DNA from: Streptomyces albogriseolus
GTDB taxonomy: Bacteria > Actinomycetota > Actinomycetes > Streptomycetales > Streptomycetaceae
NCBI GenBank assembly: GCA_014650475.1
Contig: BMVA01000025.1
Coordinates: 30,451 to 94,450 of the forward strand
Direction: 5' to 3'
DNA length: 64,000 nucleotides
Numbering within the stretch: the first letter of the stretch is position 1; every line of letters starts with the position of its first letter. The notes beneath the pieces are model-generated. The model was given only the letters and a program-made list of their open reading frames with translations, did no database searches and was not told the origin of the DNA. Position numbers and translations under genes: made by a program. Of the stretch, positions 22,817-31,234 are shown piece by piece.

Positions 22817-24694
22817 ATGACGCAGGTGACTCCCCCCGGGTGGTACCCCGACCCCGGACAGACACAAGACGGCCCGCCGACGGAACGGTGGTGGGACGGC
22901 ACGGCCTGGACGGCACGGATCCGCGGAGCCGCTGCCGCGGGGCAGGCGGTTACGGGCCCGTCCGACGCGGCCGCGGCTGACGGCGTAGGGCAGGCGGGCG
23001 CGGACTCGGCTGACGGCGTAGGGCAGGCGGGCGCGGACTCGGCTGACGCCGGAGGGCAGGCGGGCGCGGACTCGGCTGACGCCGTTGGGCAAGCGGGCGC
23101 GGGCGCAGGGCAGGCCCCTGTGGGCGATGCCCCTGTGGGGCGGGCCGACGCCGGGGAAGCGGCCGCGGGGCCGGCGGGTGCGGGGCAGGCCCCTGTGGGC
23201 GACGCCCCTGCGGGGCGGGCCGACGCGCGCCATGCCGGTGCGGAGCAGGCCGCTGCCGGCCAGACGGACCCGAGCCGGACCGGTATAGGCGCCACGGCCG
23301 GGAGCGAGGCCGGCATGAGCCGGACTCCTGCGGGACACCAGGCCGGAGGACAGGCGACCGGGGCCGAGGAGACCGCCACGGAACAGGCCGTCCCTGGGCA
23401 GGGGGGCACGGGGCAACCCCATGCCGACCGGACGGACGCGAGCCGAGACGGCTCAGGAGCGGCGACCGGAGCCGCGGCGGGGCGGTCCGACGCGGCGCAA
23501 GCGGCCGAGGCCGAGATCGGCGAAAGCCGGGCCGACGCCGAGCGAGCGACCGAAGGCCACGCCGCCGCAGGGCCCACGGCTGCCGGCCAGGCCGCCGCGA
23601 CGCAGTCGGCCGGGAGCCCGGCCGACGCGGAACCGCCAGCCGTCGGACAGACCGACCCAGGCCCGGCTGCCATCAGCCAGACCGAGGCCGACAAGGCGAC
23701 CACAAGCCACGCCGCCGCGGCGCAGCCAGTCGGCGTGGAACCGCCGACCGCCGGACAGACCGGCCCCGGCCCGGCTGCCGGGAGCCCGGCCGGGGCCGGT
23801 CAAGCCGCCGCGGCGCAGGTGGCCGGTGGCTGGGCCGCCCTGGGGCAGGTGCCCGGTCATGGGCAGGGTGGCGGCTGGGGGCCGGTGGAGACCCTTGGTG
23901 GGGGTGTGCCCGGCTACCCCGTCCACCCTGCCGCGCCGCCGTCCCGGCGGGGGCGTCGGCTGCGGATGGGGGCGGCCGTCGCCGTGGTCGCTGCCGTGCT
24001 GGCTAGTATCGGTGTGGGGGTGTACGCCCTGACCGATGACGACGGGGACCGGAGCACCGCCACCTCGCAGCGGCAGGGTGGGCGGGACGACGAGCGGGGC
24101 GCGCCCGAAGGGGGCGGTCCGGGGGGTGAGGGCGACGGCGAGGGGGACGAACCGCGCCGGGTCGAGAGCGGGGCCGTGACCGACTCGCTGAGCGGGATCA
24201 GCCTGCCCGTGCCCGAGGGGTGGTACGGCGAGGAGTTGCAGGTCGGCGCCGCGCTGACGTCCAAGGAGTCGTACGACTGCCCCGGTGACGCCTCGAAGAC
24301 CTGCGTCAAGGGCGGCGCGTACTCGGCGCCGGCCGTGGTGCTCGGCACCCGCGGCGGGACCGCCGAGGAGGTCGCGAAGGCGGACATCGCCGCGAACGCC
24401 GAGGAGAGCTACGGCGGCGAGGCGTACGGGCGGATCACCTCGCACGACGTGCTGGCGTCGAAGGCGGTGACCGTGGCCGGGCAGAAGGGGTACCTGGTCC
24501 GCTGGAAGGCGGTGACCCAGGAGGGGTCGGACGGGTTCGTGCAGTCCCTCGCCTTCCCGTCCCCGTCCCGCCCGGACCAGATCGTGGTCGTGCGCTTCGG
24601 TGTGGACACCGACCAGCGGCAGACGGTCCTCGACGAGATCACCGAGGGCATCGAGGTGGCCGAGGGCGGCCGCGGCAGCGGGCAGGACGTCTGA
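22817..24694 (+). CDS. DUF2510 membrane protein with long repetitive Ala/Gly/Gln linker
   Basis: A 625-residue protein. Residues about 4-35 form a DUF2510 motif (PPGWYPDPG, RWWDGTAWT). Residues about 36-370 are low-complexity, rich in A, G, Q, T, D and P, including four 11-residue repeats (ADGVGQAGADS type). A basic RRGRRLR flank precedes one transmembrane helix (about 385-405), so the repetitive linker should be cytoplasmic and the C-terminal domain (about 450-620, GISLPVPEGWYGEELQVG onwards) outside. Such proteins are common in actinobacteria with no assigned function; the DUF2510 part may recruit partners. A strong terminator follows at 24741-24785. Confidence 0.82.
   Translation: MTQVTPPGWYPDPGQTQDGPPTERWWDGTAWTARIRGAAAAGQAVTGPSDAAAADGVGQAGADSADGVGQAGADSADAGGQAGADSADAVGQAGAGAGQAPVGDAPVGRADAGEAAAGPAGAGQAPVGDAPAGRADARHAGAEQAAAGQTDPSRTGIGATAGSEAGMSRTPAGHQAGGQATGAEETATEQAVPGQGGTGQPHADRTDASRDGSGAATGAAAGRSDAAQAAEAEIGESRADAERATEGHAAAGPTAAGQAAATQSAGSPADAEPPAVGQTDPGPAAISQTEADKATTSHAAAAQPVGVEPPTAGQTGPGPAAGSPAGAGQAAAAQVAGGWAALGQVPGHGQGGGWGPVETLGGGVPGYPVHPAAPPSRRGRRLRMGAAVAVVAAVLASIGVGVYALTDDDGDRSTATSQRQGGRDDERGAPEGGGPGGEGDGEGDEPRRVESGAVTDSLSGISLPVPEGWYGEELQVGAALTSKESYDCPGDASKTCVKGGAYSAPAVVLGTRGGTAEEVAKADIAANAEESYGGEAYGRITSHDVLASKAVTVAGQKGYLVRWKAVTQEGSDGFVQSLAFPSPSRPDQIVVVRFGVDTDQRQTVLDEITEGIEVAEGGRGSGQDV
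22975..23106 (+). repeat. Four 33-bp in-frame tandem repeats within the DUF2510 gene
   Basis: Units begin at 22975, 23008, 23041 and 23074. Units 1 and 2 are identical; 3 and 4 diverge slightly. Each encodes 11 residues, so copy-number change would keep the frame. A further imperfect duplication of about 45 bp lies near 23108-23152 and 23183-23227. Confidence 0.8.
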
Positions 24695-24868: not shown

Positions 24869-25483
24869 TCATCGCAGTCCGAGCGCCGGCAGCACCGCGG
24901 CCTCGACGAAGCGGAGCACGTAGTCCGGGTCCGCGTTGCGTCCCTCGAGCACGGGCCGGGCCCGCAGCACCCCGAAGATCTGCGCCGGGACGTACTCCAG
25001 CGCCGGGTTGTCCGCGTCGACCTCGCCGCGCTCGACGCCCCGCCGCAGGATCTCCTCCAGCGCGGCGATCTCCGGGTCGACCAGCGCCTCCCGCAGCGCC
25101 TGCGTCAGCTCCCGGTCCTGGAGGACCGCGTGCCCGAGCGCCTGGAAGAGCGTCGCGTCCTTCGGCGACAGCTCCCCCGCGCAGCGCGCGGCCTCGCGCA
25201 GATCCCCGGCGAGGGTGCCGGTGTCGATAAGCGCGAACCGCGCCCGTCCGCTGGACCGGAGGGCGGCGGCGACGAACTGCGGCTTGGTCCGCCACTGCCG
25301 GTAGAGGGTGGACTTGCTGCACCGCGTGCTGGCGGCGACGCCCTCCATGGTGACGGCGTCGTACCCGCACTCACGGATCTGCTCCAGCACGGCGTCGAAG
25401 AACTCCCGCTCCCGCTCAGGCGTGATCTTGGAGCGGCGCGAGGCGCCGGCCGGTCCCGGTCGGTCCGCGTCCTGCGACGTCAT
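24869..25483 (-). CDS. TetR-family transcriptional repressor
   Basis: A 204-residue TetR regulator. The N-terminal HTH reads FFDAVLEQIRECGYDAVTME then STRCSKSTLYRQW (about 22-65). The C-terminal ligand-binding helices are of the TetR_C (PsrA/AcrR-like) style with no identified ligand. The ATG at 25483 is preceded by GAGGGAG; a longer reading to 25603 would translate the operator array and was rejected. Upstream, six near-palindromic TATCGGTAC units at 16-bp spacing separate it from the divergent PAP2-DMT operon, so it very probably represses itself and that operon. The inducer may be a lipid or drug handled by those membrane proteins (inference). Confidence 0.93.
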   Translation of the reverse strand: MTSQDADRPGPAGASRRSKITPEREREFFDAVLEQIRECGYDAVTMEGVAASTRCSKSTLYRQWRTKPQFVAAALRSSGRARFALIDTGTLAGDLREAARCAGELSPKDATLFQALGHAVLQDRELTQALREALVDPEIAALEEILRRGVERGEVDADNPALEYVPAQIFGVLRARPVLEGRNADPDYVLRFVEAAVLPALGLR

Positions 25484-25524
25484 CGGCTCTGCTCCCTCTC
25501 TCCCGACGGAGTGTGTCGTACGTC

Positions 25525-25613
25525 GATCGATACTCGAGTGTACCGGTACGCGAACGTATCGGTACACTGGCGTATCGGTACGGATCCGTATCGGTACGTT
25601 CATGTATCGATCT
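25525..25613. promoter_or_regulatory. Six-unit operator array, 16-bp period (TetR sites)
   Basis: Nine-mers matching TATCGGTAC begin at 25525, 25541, 25557, 25573, 25589 and 25605, exactly 16 bp apart. The three central ones are perfect; 25541 has one mismatch (it gives GTACCGGTAC, a perfect 10-bp palindrome), 25525 has two and 25605 three. The array fills the space between the tetR and PAP2 starts. Confidence 0.85.
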
Positions 25614-25704: not shown

Positions 25705-26505
25705 ATGCACGCGCGCGAGGAGTTCGAGGAACCCGAGCCGACGGGATCCGGTACCCGCGACCGGCCGCCGCTCGTCCGCGAACTGCTGCTGGTGGCCGGC
25801 CTGTTCCTCGTCTACAAGCTGGGACGGCAGCTCGCGGCCGGCCACACCGCCGAGGCGTACCGCAACGGCCGCGAGGTCTGGGACCTGGAGCGGGCGCTGC
25901 ACCTCCCCGGCGAGGGAGCGGTGCAGTCCTCGCTGCTGCACGGCGACACGCTCGTCCAGCTCGCCAACACCTACTACGCGGTCGTCCACTTCCCCGCCAC
26001 CGCGGCCTTCCTGGTCTGGCTCTACCTGCGCCGCCCCGGCCACTACGTCTGGGCCCGGCGCGCGCTGGCGGCGGTCACCGCGGCCGCGCTGGTGCTGCAC
26101 CTGACGTACCCGCTGGCTCCGCCGCGGCTGCTGCCCGCGACGGGCCTGGTGGACACGGCGCGGCTGTACGGGCCGTCGGTCTACGGACCGCCCGACGCCG
26201 ACCAGTTGTCGAACCAGTTCGCGGCGATGCCGTCGCTGCACTTCGGCTGGGCGCTGATGGTGGCGATCGGCCTGACCGCCGTCACGCGGACGGTGTGGCG
26301 GTGGCTGTGGCTGCTGCATCCGCTGGTGACCCTGCTGGTGATCGTGGGAACGGCGAACCACTTCTGGCTGGACGCGCTCGCGGCGGCCGCCCTCCTGGGG
26401 CTCGCCCTCGCGGTGGTGCGCCGGCCGCGGCCCGTCCCGGCGCCGGGGATCGTCCGGCCCAGGCGTCCGGAGCGGCGCCGCGCGCTCGTGGGGGCGAGCC
26501 GATGA
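25705..26505 (+). CDS. PAP2-family membrane phosphatase (phosphatidic-acid/inositol-phosphoceramide-synthase-like)
   Basis: A 266-residue integral membrane protein with about six hydrophobic segments. The PAP2 phosphatase motifs appear as PSLHFGWAL (motif 2, His) and the NHFWLDALAA block (motif 3, His and Asp), the arrangement of the AUR1/IPC-synthase-like branch that transfers or hydrolyses lipid head groups. AAGGGA precedes the ATG. It overlaps the next gene by 4 bp (ATGA) and is the first gene after the TetR operator array, so it should be repressed by that TetR. A role in lipid remodelling or polyprenyl-phosphate recycling is plausible but not shown. Confidence 0.88.
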   Translation: MHAREEFEEPEPTGSGTRDRPPLVRELLLVAGLFLVYKLGRQLAAGHTAEAYRNGREVWDLERALHLPGEGAVQSSLLHGDTLVQLANTYYAVVHFPATAAFLVWLYLRRPGHYVWARRALAAVTAAALVLHLTYPLAPPRLLPATGLVDTARLYGPSVYGPPDADQLSNQFAAMPSLHFGWALMVAIGLTAVTRTVWRWLWLLHPLVTLLVIVGTANHFWLDALAAAALLGLALAVVRRPRPVPAPGIVRPRRPERRRALVGASR

Positions 26506-27599
26506 GCGCCCTGCTGGTCGCGGTCCCGCTCTCCCTGGTCTCGGCCGTCGCCTACGCCTTCGCCGCCGTGACACAGGCCCGGCTGGCCACCCGCGGCTCC
26601 GGCGCCGGGGCGCTGCGGCTGCTCGGCAGCGGCGCCTGGTGGGGCGCGGTCAGCCTGAACGCGGCGGCCGCGCTGCTGCACGTCGTGGCCCTGAAGTACG
26701 GCCCGCTGACCGTGGTCCAGCCGCTGGGCGCGCTCACCCTGGTCGCCGCGGTGCCGCTGGGCGCGCGGACGGCGGGGCGGCCGGTGAGCGCCGTGGAGTG
26801 GCGCGGCACCGCCCTGACGCTGGCCGGCCTGGCGGTCGTCCTCGCCACGGCATCCGCACCGGCGCCGGACGACGTGCTGAGCGTGCCGGAGGCGCTGGCC
26901 GTCGCGGGCGGTACGGCGTCCCTGGTCGGCCTGCTGTCCCGGCCCGGCACCCGTCCGGGCCTGCGTCACGCGACCGCGTCGGGCATCGCGTCGGGGGTCG
27001 CCTCCGCGCTGACCCAGACGGTGACGGTCGCGGCGACCGACCGCACCGGCCCGCTGCTCGACGTCCGCGTGATCGGTGTGGCGCTGCTGGTCGCCGTCTT
27101 CTCGGCCTGCGGCCTCCTTCTCGCACAGACCGCGTACCGGGGCGGCCTCGGGGCCCCCTTGGCGATGGTCACGCTCGCCAACCCCCTGGCGGCGGCGGTG
27201 ATCGGCCTGGGCCTGCTCGGCGAGCATCTCCGGGGCGGCGCGCCCGGTCTGGCGTTCGGCCTGTTCGGCGCCGCTCTCGCGGCGCGGGGCGTAATCCTGC
27301 TGTCACGGGCCGCCGAGGGGACCTCCGCCGGTCCTGCGGAGGGTCAGGACGAGCCGGGCACGTCTCCGGCGGGGCCACGCACACCGGTCCCGGCGACCAC
27401 GGGCACGTCCGGCTTCCCGCAGTGGACGCCGCCGGTGGCCGCGGAGCCGTACACGCCGAGCCCGTCGGCGGGGGTGCCCCTTCTCCCGCCGGCTCGCGCC
27501 CAGGAGGGCGCGGCACTTCACTCCGCCCGGAGACCCGGGCGGCGGCGGAGACGGCGCCGGTGTCCCGGGCGGAGGGCCGGGGAGCACCGGGCCGCCTGA
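26502..27599 (+). CDS. DMT-superfamily (EamA-like) transporter
   Basis: A 365-residue polytopic protein with about ten hydrophobic helices over residues 1-275, arranged as two EamA-like halves (GPLTVVQPLGALTLVAAVPLG, split at residues 66-86, and GAPLAMVTLANPLAAAVIGL in the second half). The Streptomyces members of this group are annotated as multidrug DMT transporters without known substrates. The C-terminal 90 residues are Pro/Ser/Gly-rich and end in a very Arg-rich tail (RRRRRRR), unusual for the family; the true protein might end earlier if a sequencing shift were present. The start overlaps the PAP2 stop (ATGA). Export of a lipid or drug sensed by the TetR is an inference. Confidence 0.85.
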   Translation: MSALLVAVPLSLVSAVAYAFAAVTQARLATRGSGAGALRLLGSGAWWGAVSLNAAAALLHVVALKYGPLTVVQPLGALTLVAAVPLGARTAGRPVSAVEWRGTALTLAGLAVVLATASAPAPDDVLSVPEALAVAGGTASLVGLLSRPGTRPGLRHATASGIASGVASALTQTVTVAATDRTGPLLDVRVIGVALLVAVFSACGLLLAQTAYRGGLGAPLAMVTLANPLAAAVIGLGLLGEHLRGGAPGLAFGLFGAALAARGVILLSRAAEGTSAGPAEGQDEPGTSPAGPRTPVPATTGTSGFPQWTPPVAAEPYTPSPSAGVPLLPPARAQEGAALHSARRPGRRRRRRRCPGRRAGEHRAA

Positions 27600-28127: not shown

Positions 28128-28658
28128 ATGACCACGGCACTTCCGCACCCGGCCGCCTCGCTCCGTCCGCTGCCCGACACGCGCCACCTCCACCTGGTGG
28201 CCGACGGGGTGCGGCACGACGCCGAGGACCCCGCGTCCCCGCCGCTCGTCGGCTACCTCCTGCTGGTTCCTCAGGGCACCGATCCCCTGGACCTGTTCGC
28301 GAAGGACCGGCCGCGGCCCGAGTTCCGTCCGGCGGACGACGCCGTCAGGATCGACACCGCGCGCCGCACCGCCGAGGTCGACGGGCGTGAACTCGACCTG
28401 ACGTACCTGGAGTTCGAACTGCTGGCGCACCTCGTACGACGGCCGCACCTCGTGCAGTCGCGCGAGACGCTGGTGGCGGCCGTCTGGGGCTACGACCACG
28501 TCGGCGACGGCCGCACGGTCGACGTCCACGTCGCACGCCTGCGCCGCAAGCTGGGCGCCGCCCACCGGCGCCGGATCGTGACCGTCCGGTCCATCGGCTA
28601 CAAGTACGTCCCCGACCAGCAGGAAAGCCCCCACGCCGCAGCCCGCGGCCGATCCTGA
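28128..28658 (+). CDS. Orphan OmpR-type winged-helix DNA-binding protein (no receiver domain)
   Basis: A 176-residue regulator. The C-terminal half (about 75-165) is a standard OmpR/PhoB winged helix: LDLTYLEFELLAHLVRRP, then TLVAAVWGY, VDVHVARLRRKLG and IVTVRSIGYKYV. The first 70 residues contain no Asp-bearing receiver fold; instead there is a short VGYLLLVPQGTDPLDLF segment. So it is not a typical response regulator and may respond to a metabolite or simply activate constitutively. GAGGG precedes the ATG. It is the first structural gene of the organosulfur unit, 14 bp ahead of the SfnB-like monooxygenase gene, and is a candidate activator binding TCACCATGTGA at both sulfur promoters (inference). 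Confidence 0.85.
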   Translation: MTTALPHPAASLRPLPDTRHLHLVADGVRHDAEDPASPPLVGYLLLVPQGTDPLDLFAKDRPRPEFRPADDAVRIDTARRTAEVDGRELDLTYLEFELLAHLVRRPHLVQSRETLVAAVWGYDHVGDGRTVDVHVARLRRKLGAAHRRRIVTVRSIGYKYVPDQQESPHAAARGRS

Positions 28659-28671
28659 GGAGAGCACCGCC

Positions 28672-29898
28672 ATGTGCCCTGCCGCCGCCGCGCCGACCCG
28701 CCCCGTGTCCCCGGCCGAACCCGTCGCGGACGGCCGGGCGCACTGGCTGCGCGTGGCCCGCGAGACGGCGGACGACCTGGCCACGGACACCGTGGACCGG
28801 GAACAGGCCGGCAAGGCCCCGGTCGACGAGGTGTCCCGGCTGCGCGAGTCGGGTCTGCTGACGCTGACGCCGGCCGGGCCGGGCGGCGGCGGTGCGGACT
28901 GGGACACGGCGTACGCGGTGGTGCGGGAGATCTCCGCGGCCGACGGCGCCATCGGACAGCTCCTCGGGTCCCACTACTTCCTGTCGTGGAGCGCCCGGTT
29001 CTTCGGGGACCCGGAGACGGCCCGGCGGACGGTGGAGCGCTCCGCGGCCGGACAGTGGTGCTGGGGCGGCGGGTTCGCCCCGCAGGACCCGCCGTTGACG
29101 CTGTCCCGCACCTCCCGCGGCCTGGTGCTCGGCGGCCGCCAGAGCTACCCGACCGGGGTGCTGGTGGCCGACCGTCTCGCCGTGCGGGCGGTGCGGGAGG
29201 ACACCGGCGAACCCCTGGCCGTGACGGTGGACCCGGCCCGCCGGGGCGTGGTGGTCGACGCGGCCGGCGACACCTTCGGGCAGCGGCTCGCGGGCGGCGG
29301 CAGCGTGGAGCTCGACGCCGTGCCGGTGGGCGCCGACGACGTCCTGGGCTCGCTGTCGGGGGACGAGGACCTGGTCCCCAGGACCGCCCTGGCCGCGCCC
29401 GTCGGCCGGCTGTTCTCGGTGCAGCTGCTGCTCGGCATGGCCGAGGGGGTGCTGGCCGAGGTGCGCGAGTACAGCAGGGCGGGGCACCGCCCGTGGCAGC
29501 CCGTCCCGTCCGCCGGCGCGCCCGACGACCCGCAGGTGCTCACCGCGTACGGCGAGCTGACCGTGCTCGCCCGCTCCGCGTCCGCGCTGTGCGACCAGGC
29601 CCTGGACGCCGTGCGGCGGGGGCTGGAGCGCGGCGAGGAGCTGACGTACGACGAGTACGCGGACGTCTCCGCGCTGGTGTCCATGGCCGAGACGGCGGCC
29701 GCCCGGGCCGCGCAGGAGTCCGCCACCCGCGCGCTCGACATCGTCGGCCCGCGCTCGGCGTCCGCGCGGCTGGGTTTCGACCGGTTCTGGCGCAACGCCC
29801 GGACCCACACCCTGTACGAGCCCGTCGCGCACCGGCTGCGTGACGTCGGGGACTACTTCCTCAACGGCGCCCACCCCCCGTTCGTCCTGCCCGCCTGA
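28672..29898 (+). CDS. SfnB-like flavin-dependent organosulfur monooxygenase (acyl-CoA dehydrogenase fold)
   Basis: A 408-residue member of the acyl-CoA-dehydrogenase-fold FMN monooxygenases (SfnB/DszC branch), which attack C-S bonds or sulfones with FMNH2 from a separate reductase. Recognisable blocks are DGAIGQLLGSHYFLSW, GRQSYPTGVLVADRLAV, GRLFSVQLLLGMAEGVLAE (starting about 243), and the C-terminal RALDIVGPRSAS with NARTHTLYEPV. The acyl-CoA dehydrogenase catalytic Glu is not needed in this branch. GAGGAGAG precedes the ATG. Position between a winged-helix regulator and a TauE exporter, in a cluster with SsuABC, supports a role in sulfur scavenging from sulfones or sulfonates; the exact substrate is unknown. 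Confidence 0.85.
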   Translation: MCPAAAAPTRPVSPAEPVADGRAHWLRVARETADDLATDTVDREQAGKAPVDEVSRLRESGLLTLTPAGPGGGGADWDTAYAVVREISAADGAIGQLLGSHYFLSWSARFFGDPETARRTVERSAAGQWCWGGGFAPQDPPLTLSRTSRGLVLGGRQSYPTGVLVADRLAVRAVREDTGEPLAVTVDPARRGVVVDAAGDTFGQRLAGGGSVELDAVPVGADDVLGSLSGDEDLVPRTALAAPVGRLFSVQLLLGMAEGVLAEVREYSRAGHRPWQPVPSAGAPDDPQVLTAYGELTVLARSASALCDQALDAVRRGLERGEELTYDEYADVSALVSMAETAAARAAQESATRALDIVGPRSASARLGFDRFWRNARTHTLYEPVAHRLRDVGDYFLNGAHPPFVLPA

Positions 29899-29928
29899 CC
29901 CCTCGGGGACCGTATCCAAGGACATGTC

Positions 29929-30711
29929 GTGACCTGGTCCACCGGACTCGCCGGACTGGCCGCGGGCCTGGTCATCTCGGTGGCGACCACGCCCGCGGGG
30001 GTGTCCGGCGCGGTGTTCCTGCTGCCGGTGCAGCTCAGCGTCCTCGGGGTGCCGAGCCCCGCGGTCACGCCGACGAACCTGCTGTTCAACGTGGTGGCCG
30101 GGCCCGGCGCGCTGCTGCGGCACCACCGCGCCGGCCTGCTGCGCGACCCGCTGACCCGCCGTCTGGTGAGCGGCACCCTGCCCGGTGTGGTCGTGGGCGC
30201 CGCCGTGCGGGTGTTCGCCGTACCCGGGGCCACCGTCTTCCGGCTGCTGATCGCCGTCCTGCTGGTGCCGCTCGGGCTGTGGCTCGTCCGGCGCACGGTG
30301 AGACCCGCCCGTCCCGCCGGGAGCGCGGAGCCGTCGCCGCGCGCCGTGACCGGGCTGGCCCTGGCGGTCGGCGTCGTCGGCGGGGTGTACGGCATCGGCG
30401 GCGGCTCGCTGCTCGGGCCGCTGCTGGCCGGGCTGGGCATGTCCGTCGCACGGGTGGCGCCGGCGGCGCTGGCCTCGACCTTCGTCACCTCGGTGGCGGG
30501 CGCGGCCGCCTTCGCGCTGCTGTCCCTGGCGGGCGCCGGCGACGTGGACCCGGACTGGTACCTGGGACTGGCCTGCGGGCTGGGCGGGCTGATCGGCGGG
30601 TATCTCGGCGCGCGGCTCCAGTCTCGCCTGCCCGAGACCGGGCTGCGTCTGCTGCTGGGCTCCCTCGCCACCGCGGTGGGCGTCCTTTACGCCGTGCAGG
30701 CGCTGGGCTGA
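29929..30711 (+). CDS. TauE/SafE-family sulfite/sulfonate exporter
   Basis: A 260-residue membrane protein with about eight helices in two halves (N-terminal GLVISVATTPAGVSGAVFLL; C-terminal GVYGIGGGSLLGPLLAGLG), the family pattern of glycine-rich TauE/SafE transporters that export sulfite, sulfoacetate or other C-S breakdown products. AAGGA precedes the GTG. It is 30 bp behind the monooxygenase gene, consistent with removal of toxic sulfite released by desulfonation. Direction and substrate are inferred from the family and context. Confidence 0.88.
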   Translation: MTWSTGLAGLAAGLVISVATTPAGVSGAVFLLPVQLSVLGVPSPAVTPTNLLFNVVAGPGALLRHHRAGLLRDPLTRRLVSGTLPGVVVGAAVRVFAVPGATVFRLLIAVLLVPLGLWLVRRTVRPARPAGSAEPSPRAVTGLALAVGVVGGVYGIGGGSLLGPLLAGLGMSVARVAPAALASTFVTSVAGAAAFALLSLAGAGDVDPDWYLGLACGLGGLIGGYLGARLQSRLPETGLRLLLGSLATAVGVLYAVQALG

Positions 30712-30763
30712 CCGCCGGTTCAGCGGCCCCGACCGCGGGTGGAGGGCGGCGCGGGCCGTGCGG

Positions 30764-30769
30764 GATAAT
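30764..30769 (+). promoter_or_regulatory. -10 box for a probable leaderless rrf2 transcript
   Basis: GATAAT lies 6 bp before the Rrf2 ATG (30776), so transcription would begin at or next to the start codon. No ribosome-binding site is seen, fitting leaderless translation, which is common in actinobacteria. No clear -35 box. Confidence 0.4.
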
Positions 30770-30775
30770 GTCGGC

Positions 30776-31234
30776 ATGCGGATCTCAGCCAGGGCGGACT
30801 ACGCGGTACGCGCCGCGCTGCAACTCGCGTCGTCCGGGGACGGCGGGCCGCTCAAGGCCGAGGCGATCGCCGACGCGCAGGACATCCCGCACAAGTTCCT
30901 GGAGAGCATCCTCAACGACATGCGGCGGGGCGGGCTCGTGGTGAGCCAGCGCGGCGGGAACGGCGGGTACCGGCTGGCGAAGCCCGCCGACGCGATCAGC
31001 ATCGCCGACGTCATCCGCGTCGTGGAGGGTCCGCTGGTCTCGGTGCGCGGCGTCCGCCCGCCCGAGCTGTCCTACTCCGGTCCCGCCGAGTCGCTGCTGC
31101 CGCTGTGGATCGCGCTGCGGTCGAACGTGCGCCAGATCCTGGAGGGTGTGTCCCTCGCCGATGTGGCGTCGTCCCAACTCCCGGCCGGGGTGGCCGCGTT
31201 GGCGGACGCCCCGAAGGCCTGGGTGAATCCCTGA
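30776..31234 (+). CDS. Rrf2-family transcriptional regulator without cysteines (CymR-like)
   Basis: A 152-residue Rrf2 regulator starting MRISARADYAVRAALQLAS, with recognition-helix region IPHKFLESILNDMRRGGLV and the wing SQRGGNGGYRLAKP. Rrf2 proteins that bind Fe-S (IscR, NsrR, RsrR) have three Cys in the middle; this one has no Cys at all, so it should sense by protein or ligand, as CymR does in cysteine regulation. The ATG at 30776 is the family start, not the ATG at 30758. It follows the TauE gene and precedes the second leader peptide. Likely represses both sulfur units at CCTA-N9-TAGG (inference). Confidence 0.9.
   Translation: MRISARADYAVRAALQLASSGDGGPLKAEAIADAQDIPHKFLESILNDMRRGGLVVSQRGGNGGYRLAKPADAISIADVIRVVEGPLVSVRGVRPPELSYSGPAESLLPLWIALRSNVRQILEGVSLADVASSQLPAGVAALADAPKAWVNP

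Follow-up and report, generated by a model that had tools for sequence, protein, structure and literature searches.

Which protein reads a row of six similar sites spaced exactly 16 bp apart, and what is the unit that it reads? The row lies between a tetR gene and a PAP2/DMT-like gene pair (25705-27599, plus strand) of Streptomyces albogriseolus, in a 64,000-nt stretch of DNA referred to here as the window. TetR repressors are usually described with one or two dimers per operator in the cited parts of PMC4150764 and PMC9210681. The original prediction read the row as six 10-bp palindromic sites of the adjacent TetR. The main features are as follows.

24869-25483, minus strand: tetR, TetR-family repressor gene, 204 aa, TetR_N plus TetR_C_11 (Pfam); presumed binder of the array
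25524-25613, no strand: whole array, six 16-bp repeats starting at 25524, 25540, 25556, 25572, 25588 and 25604
25705-26505, plus strand: PAP2-superfamily membrane protein, 266 aa (PF14378, 143.8 bits); leading gene of the presumed target operon
26502-27599, plus strand: DMT-superfamily/NIPA-like membrane protein, 365 aa (profile matches below cut-off)

A conserved 16-bp array beside tetR

The 9-mers predicted at 25525, 25541, 25557, 25573, 25589 and 25605 start at exactly these positions in the window sequence, though compared by eye only three of them (25557, 25573 and 25589) match TATCGGTAC letter for letter. The copy at 25541 carries one mismatch, that at 25525 (GATCGATAC) two and that at 25605 (TATCGATCT) three. 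Tandem Repeats Finder returned a period of 16 for the array, which contains a chain of four units spaced by 16 bp, none with more than one mismatch. When the 300 nt upstream of tetR were resampled 2000 times under a first-order Markov model and all spacings between 11 and 25 bp were considered, no chain exceeded two units, a length reached in 2/2000 resamples. A chance origin of the array is excluded. Across the 8.07-Mb genome, the two-unit pattern GTAYCGRTAC N6 GTAYCGRTAC was found only at the array, as three overlapping pairs, with 0 for the reversed-pattern control. The 10-mer GTAYCGRTAC by itself occurred 24 times versus 19 for its reversed control, close to background, and thus the signal is the periodic arrangement.

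We compared 199 genomes of the genus to assess conservation. The exact two-unit pattern was present in 112/199, with a reversed-pattern control of 0 throughout, and all 112 had a match to the window TetR at E <= 7.3e-65. A further 15 genomes had a TetR match at that cut-off but lacked the exact pattern; 16-bp arrays with mismatches were present at all 15 of their loci. The other 72/199 had neither the pattern nor a TetR of the window type. The cut-off was picked after the arrays had been seen, and the TetR and pattern lists were cross-counted by hand. We read 125 of the 127 loci (L001, L004-L032 and others), leaving out those of G197 and G163; listed coordinates place array and tetR 80 nt apart in G197. 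Loci L004-L032 were chosen through the pattern and L033-L150 through the TetR search. Before counting we set aside L002 and L003, which duplicate L001, together with 11 sister loci and 12 paralogue loci, and counts of gap letters also omit two duplicate arrays.

The periodic motif that the original prediction expected beside orthologous tetR genes is present at all the loci read, with a 16-bp chain at 125/125. The mean longest chain was 3.85 at 16 bp versus 1.00-1.01 at each other spacing from 11 to 25, and the spacing scan of these 125 arrays found one extra site outside the chains. Matches by tblastn to the PAP2 and DMT-like proteins were present in 118/125 and 122/125 orthologous stretches, respectively. 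One clade (L008, L038, L145, L146 and L150) has no PAP2 match and shows a DMT-like match after a six-repeat array. The array is thus real and conserved; it is the repeat unit that was misread.

The array had also been called iteron-like, which is apt only for its periodicity; no replication function is indicated. Replication-origin iterons, or a plain tandem repeat devoid of function, would share the direct 16-bp periodicity, but the mid-gap bases are variable and the 10-bp cores retained, which sets the array apart from a recent tandem duplication, and the array is conserved beside tetR at the 125 loci read. We assign this explanation a negligible probability. Replication iterons were rejected as a class on two grounds: a Pfam scan of nine neighbouring genes returned no replication initiator, and the array is conserved with tetR.

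The proposed operator unit

The perfect 10-bp palindrome GTACCGGTAC was correctly located at 25540-25549, but taking it for the strongest form of the site is not supported, as it appears to be made of two weak halves of two neighbouring operators. A 22-bp palindrome, AYCGRTAC-N6-GTAYCGRT, centred on the 6-bp gap between repeats, is the best reading of the unit. With such a unit, the six repeats would form five overlapping operators with centres 16 bp apart, each with 0 mismatches to AYCGRTACN6GTAYCGRT and none assigned a strand:

25526-25547: predicted operator O1, ATCGATAC-TCGAGT-GTACCGGT, nearest tetR
25542-25563: predicted operator O2
25558-25579: predicted operator O3, gap ACTGGC
25574-25595: predicted operator O4
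25590-25611: predicted operator O5, nearest PAP2

A scan of the 8.07-Mb genome for this 22-mer with up to one mismatch returned exactly five sites, all in the array and all perfect, and the reversed-pattern control returned 1. The window's genome therefore shows no further target of this form.

The ends of the arrays distinguish a gap-centred unit from the predicted one, in which the same TetR would place one dimer on every 10-bp palindrome GTAYCGRTAC, giving six sites of which two are degenerate. The high conservation of internal 10-mers (327/402 perfect, 70 with one mismatch) agrees with six such sites. The terminal 10-mers, however, are damaged mainly on their outer side. Across the 125 arrays the first repeat keeps ATCGATAC, and the last repeat GTATCGAT, better than its two outer bases. 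Counted by a symmetric 10-mer rule (n=125), the first repeat had 193 outer-half and 33 inner-half mismatches, and the last had 177 and 23, respectively. Array by array this does not hold at every end, a point against the gap-centred unit: the outer half was worse than the inner in 96, equal in 20 and better in 9 for the first repeat, and worse in 91, equal in 31 and better in 3 for the last (n=125 each). An end rule based on the inner half could favour such an asymmetry, and we therefore recounted with the symmetric rule; the ends were the same in 119/125 arrays and the asymmetry stayed. It is expected if a dimer is centred on each gap and unexplained if a dimer sits on each 10-mer. Perfect terminal 10-mers were found in 31/250 cases (131/250 had two mismatches), versus 139/250 perfect outermost 22-mers (223/250 within one mismatch).

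Covariation between half-sites points the same way. Half-sites were named strong (GTATCG/CGATAC) or weak (GTACCG/CGGTAC), names that derive from the pattern of occurrence and not from affinity, and were shuffled with array size and position matched, which removes shared ancestry only in part. Pairs of weak halves facing each other across a gap occurred in 20/527 cases versus 58.0 (sd 3.2) expected, and in thinned sets in 13/270 versus 30.4 (sd 2.2) and 8/128 versus 19.0 (sd 1.9); 19 of the 20 sit in outermost operators. Inside the 10-mers the depletion of such pairs was small, 84/402 versus 101.3 (sd 3.0), with 43/209 versus 49.0 (sd 2.0) and 19/102 versus 21.7 (sd 1.6) after thinning, the last not significant. 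This slight depletion favours dimers on 10-mers; the gap-centred model does not predict it, and it counts against that model. The stronger covariation nonetheless runs across the gap.

Two characterised regulators have operators whose half-sites, of this kind, are centred on an N6 gap. A DarR dimer (Rhodococcus, mycobacteria) binds GATAC-N6-GTATC with the dimer axis running through the gap, in the crystal structure described in the cited part of PMC10636190, and this is the geometry of the array's 22-mers. The same part describes two DarR dimers on overlapping palindromes of one 20-bp site, whereas the array here is 16-bp periodic. McbR of Corynebacterium glutamicum has an operator of like geometry, TAGAC-N6-GTCTA (PMC9210681), which is also close to the AGAC-N6-GTCT of a sister lineage described below; it is given as a single motif in the text cited, and the array here is multi-unit. 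End asymmetry, half-site covariation, the 22-mer scan and the DarR and McbR geometry all oppose six 10-bp palindromes as the sites, a reading that we regard as improbable. The array illustrates how end effects and covariation, in place of the most visible palindrome, can serve to identify a repeat unit.

A putative repressor row on two divergent promoters

We consider it probable, from the sequence, that the array consists of five overlapping 22-bp operators of the adjacent TetR, acting as a local autorepressor on both divergent promoters. The tetR product matches PF00440 (34.6 bits) and PF16859 (76.9 bits), both above the curated cut-off. Its TetR_N helix-turn-helix and all-helical TetR_C_11 domain, found by Pfam, an AlphaFold2 model (mean pLDDT 87) and Foldseek, place it in the TetR_C_11 subgroup. 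The nearest solved folds of the model by Foldseek (2fq4, SCO5951 and an Ms6564-DNA complex) are TetR-family regulators. Operator-like palindromes lie beside its own gene, the 22-bp palindromes being 43-128 nt from the tetR start. By type the array is a predicted TetR autoregulatory operator, its multi-operator row a new variant.

In the mechanism that we propose, a predicted TetR dimer would be centred on each 6-bp gap, and each internal 10-bp palindrome would serve two dimers, with GTAY read from the left by one and RTAC from the right by the other. Without inducer, the row of dimers would cover both divergent promoters and repress tetR and the PAP2-DMT operon; a ligand, probably sensed by the TetR_C_11 domain, would release the dimers. 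We infer from the DNA letters TetR binding, repression, promoter positions, any cooperativity and ligand release. Conservation of the row of overlapping sites in many Streptomyces relatives suggests that several repressor molecules may line up here, and not the usual one or two.

The spacing of 1.5 turns on alternating faces, part of the original prediction, holds as arithmetic: 16 bp between centres corresponds to 549 degrees at 10.5 bp per turn (~1.5 turns), which would place neighbouring predicted dimers on roughly opposite DNA faces and next-but-one operators on the same face, 32 bp apart. With neighbours on about opposite faces, protein contact between dimers is not a given, and the filament-like binding and steep or graded switch of the original prediction are hypothetical. 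CprB binds as two cooperative dimers on opposite DNA sides with no mutual contact, in the part of PMC4150764 cited, so any cooperativity here could be mediated by the DNA, or there could be none.

The array does lie in a divergent promoter region, as predicted, but the PAP2 and DMT-like genes run in the same direction, and it is tetR and PAP2 that diverge. The gap letters offer candidate promoter elements. The first gap ends in AGT in 87/125 arrays, and of the later gaps in the relatives ACTGGC is the most frequent; together with the neighbouring TAC or GTA, these letters form TACACT in opposite directions. O1 contains AGTGTA at 25537-25542, which is TACACT on the minus strand and a possible -10 box towards tetR, and O3 contains TACACT at 25563-25568, a possible -10 box towards PAP2. 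A promoter scan returned no consensus sigma-70 promoter, and the TACACT boxes are no more than conserved gap letters.

The start codon of the DMT-like gene overlaps the PAP2 stop codon. Its product scored 41.2 bits against NCBIfam DMT_1 (cut-off 50) and 16.9 bits against Pfam Mg_trans_NIPA (cut-off 26.2), both below cut-off. Directly downstream of tetR, positions 22817-24694 encode a 625-aa DUF2510 protein with a long repetitive stretch rich in Ala, Gly and Gln. Further along, at 28128-31234, a plus-strand row encodes a winged-helix regulator (Trans_reg_C), an acyl-CoA-dehydrogenase-like flavoprotein, a TauE/SafE exporter and an Rrf2 regulator, possibly a sulfur-related set.

The number of repeats varies among the 125 arrays: 22 have four, 69 have five, 25 have six, 3 have seven and 6 have eight (19, 69, 28, 3 and 6, respectively, by the symmetric calling rule, n=125). 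On the TetR tree of the 125 loci, copy number requires at least 33 changes versus 51.0 for shuffled labels (range 44-55, 200 shuffles); it is thus labile but inherited. We tentatively propose, as an idea that could well be wrong, that TetR occupies an extendable row of three to seven overlapping operators, with two dimers on opposite DNA faces at each internal 10-bp unit, and that evolution can adjust how steep the PAP2-DMT switch is, or at what threshold it acts, by changing the number of repeats. If so, repeat numbers from four to eight, with at least 33 inferred changes, would tune that steepness or threshold. Natural arrays of 4-8 units across the genus, with one spacing and a simple half-site grammar, offer a ready set for relating repressor number, overlap and helical phase to response, and the lack of another visible target in the window's genome adds to their value as a test set.

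Related loci and known multi-dimer systems

Loci with relatives of the window TetR bear on whether the adjacent gene encodes the binder. At the 11 sister loci the array has three 16-bp repeats and an altered half-site, its typical form being CAATCGAGAC-GCAAAC-GTATCGAGAC-GCTTGC-GTCTCGATGA, with a PAP2 match in 11/11 and a DMT match in 10/11. The division into main, sister and paralogue loci was drawn after the arrays had been seen; the E cut of 7.3e-65 separates the main group from the rest, and percent identity does not (main >=55%, sister <=56%). Four sister tips were included in the FastTree tree, and all of them descend from the ancestor node of the main arrays. The 12 paralogue loci, whose TetR is 48-53% identical, have no 4-8 unit array and no PAP2 or DMT match. 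That the array goes with the adjacent tetR, another part of the original prediction, is thus borne out at the 125 orthologous loci and by these paralogues. By eye, 11/12 paralogue loci (L050, L058, L061, L062 and L064-L070) share a palindrome with a 1-bp gap, GWACGAAACSGTTTCGTAC, upstream of tetR. The twelfth, L039, has a variant of GWACGAAACSGTTTCGTAC and two related units spaced by 16 bp, ATCGAAAC-GCAAGC-GTATCGAAAC, upstream of its tetR, and is a possible intermediate between single operators and arrays. Close relatives can differ in the number and geometry of their predicted operators, from a sister three-repeat array to a paralogue single palindrome, which weighs against the proposed row of operators.

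A pattern scan of a named genome collection gave at least 120 matching stretches. Titles were available for 80, of which 78 are Streptomyces, one is actinobacterium OV450 and one an Acidimicrobiaceae MAG. Among the 120 matches listed, 114 have a TetR match within 400 nt, 4 have PAP2 and DMT matches and no TetR match in the stretch, and L234 and L247 look like chance pairs. One of the 114, the stretch from the Acidimicrobiaceae-titled MAG (L182, 4900-5739), holds a four-unit 16-bp array of the same motif with gaps gtgatc, gtgata and gtgata, upstream of a TetR_C_11 gene 33% identical to the window TetR; by eye, an MFS-like gene is next. The array may have arrived by distant transfer, or the same operator grammar may have come into use convergently.

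These loci weigh on the proposal that some other regulator, or an activator, binds the array in place of the adjacent TetR. The tie between TetR and array is one of genomic association only, which leaves room for such a protein. Yet the association with tetR is complete in the 199-genome sample, the distant TetR_C_11 gene of L182 has an array of its own, and the sister TetR lineage carries its altered half-site in the same place. We judge another binder very unlikely and retain the adjacent TetR.

In the class sample the pattern was found in 19/40 genomes of the same genus and 0/354 of other genera, and in the phylum sample in 6/296, all of the same genus; exact pairs are thus confined to the genus in these samples, with L182, from the named collection, as the one exception seen. 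A search of the order by protein (E <= 1e-35) found the TetR or a relative in 165/197 genomes and 2/6 genera, the match in another genus being G694 at 1.7e-52.

Among known systems, the nearest precedent is EthR of Mycobacterium tuberculosis, reported as a cooperative homo-octamer on a 55-bp operator with direct and inverted repeats (PMC9210681, in the part cited). On its single long operator EthR thus exceeds two dimers, and the array here would have room for five. The arrays differ in that they are strictly 16-bp periodic, with 4-8 repeats offering room for 3-7 dimers. None of the seven solved-structure sequence matches of the window TetR is a chain named EthR. Ms6564, among its nearest solved folds, is described as binding DNA with two dimers at about 180 degrees to each other (PMC4150764, as cited), similar to the predicted arrangement of neighbours here. 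Ms6564, QacR, CgmR and CprB, however, place two dimers on 22-32-bp operators, not on an extendable row. The QacR/CprB dimer-of-dimers class was rejected for the array, which, judged on sequence, has 3-7 overlapping 22-bp operator sequences per locus. The TetR-family division regulators SlmA and RefZ spread along DNA, or form a ladder in EMSA, beyond the first dimer pair, according to the part of PMC6657595 cited; that spreading starts from one motif, whereas here the DNA carries a periodic series of sites. A search of open-licence papers by titles and the starts of abstracts found no paper on the array among the matches listed.

The 16-bp array is not general to the TetR_C_11 subgroup. None of 30 TetR_C_11 loci from a 60-genome class search, scanned over the whole stretch, contained at least three similar near-palindromic 10-mers spaced by 16 bp (0/30), with a detector that recovered 29/30 main-group loci. 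Chains were seen at these same loci at 11, 12, 15, 18, 21, 23 and 24 bp. Two of them, L308 and L309, have a CGAAAC-N6-GTTTCG palindrome.
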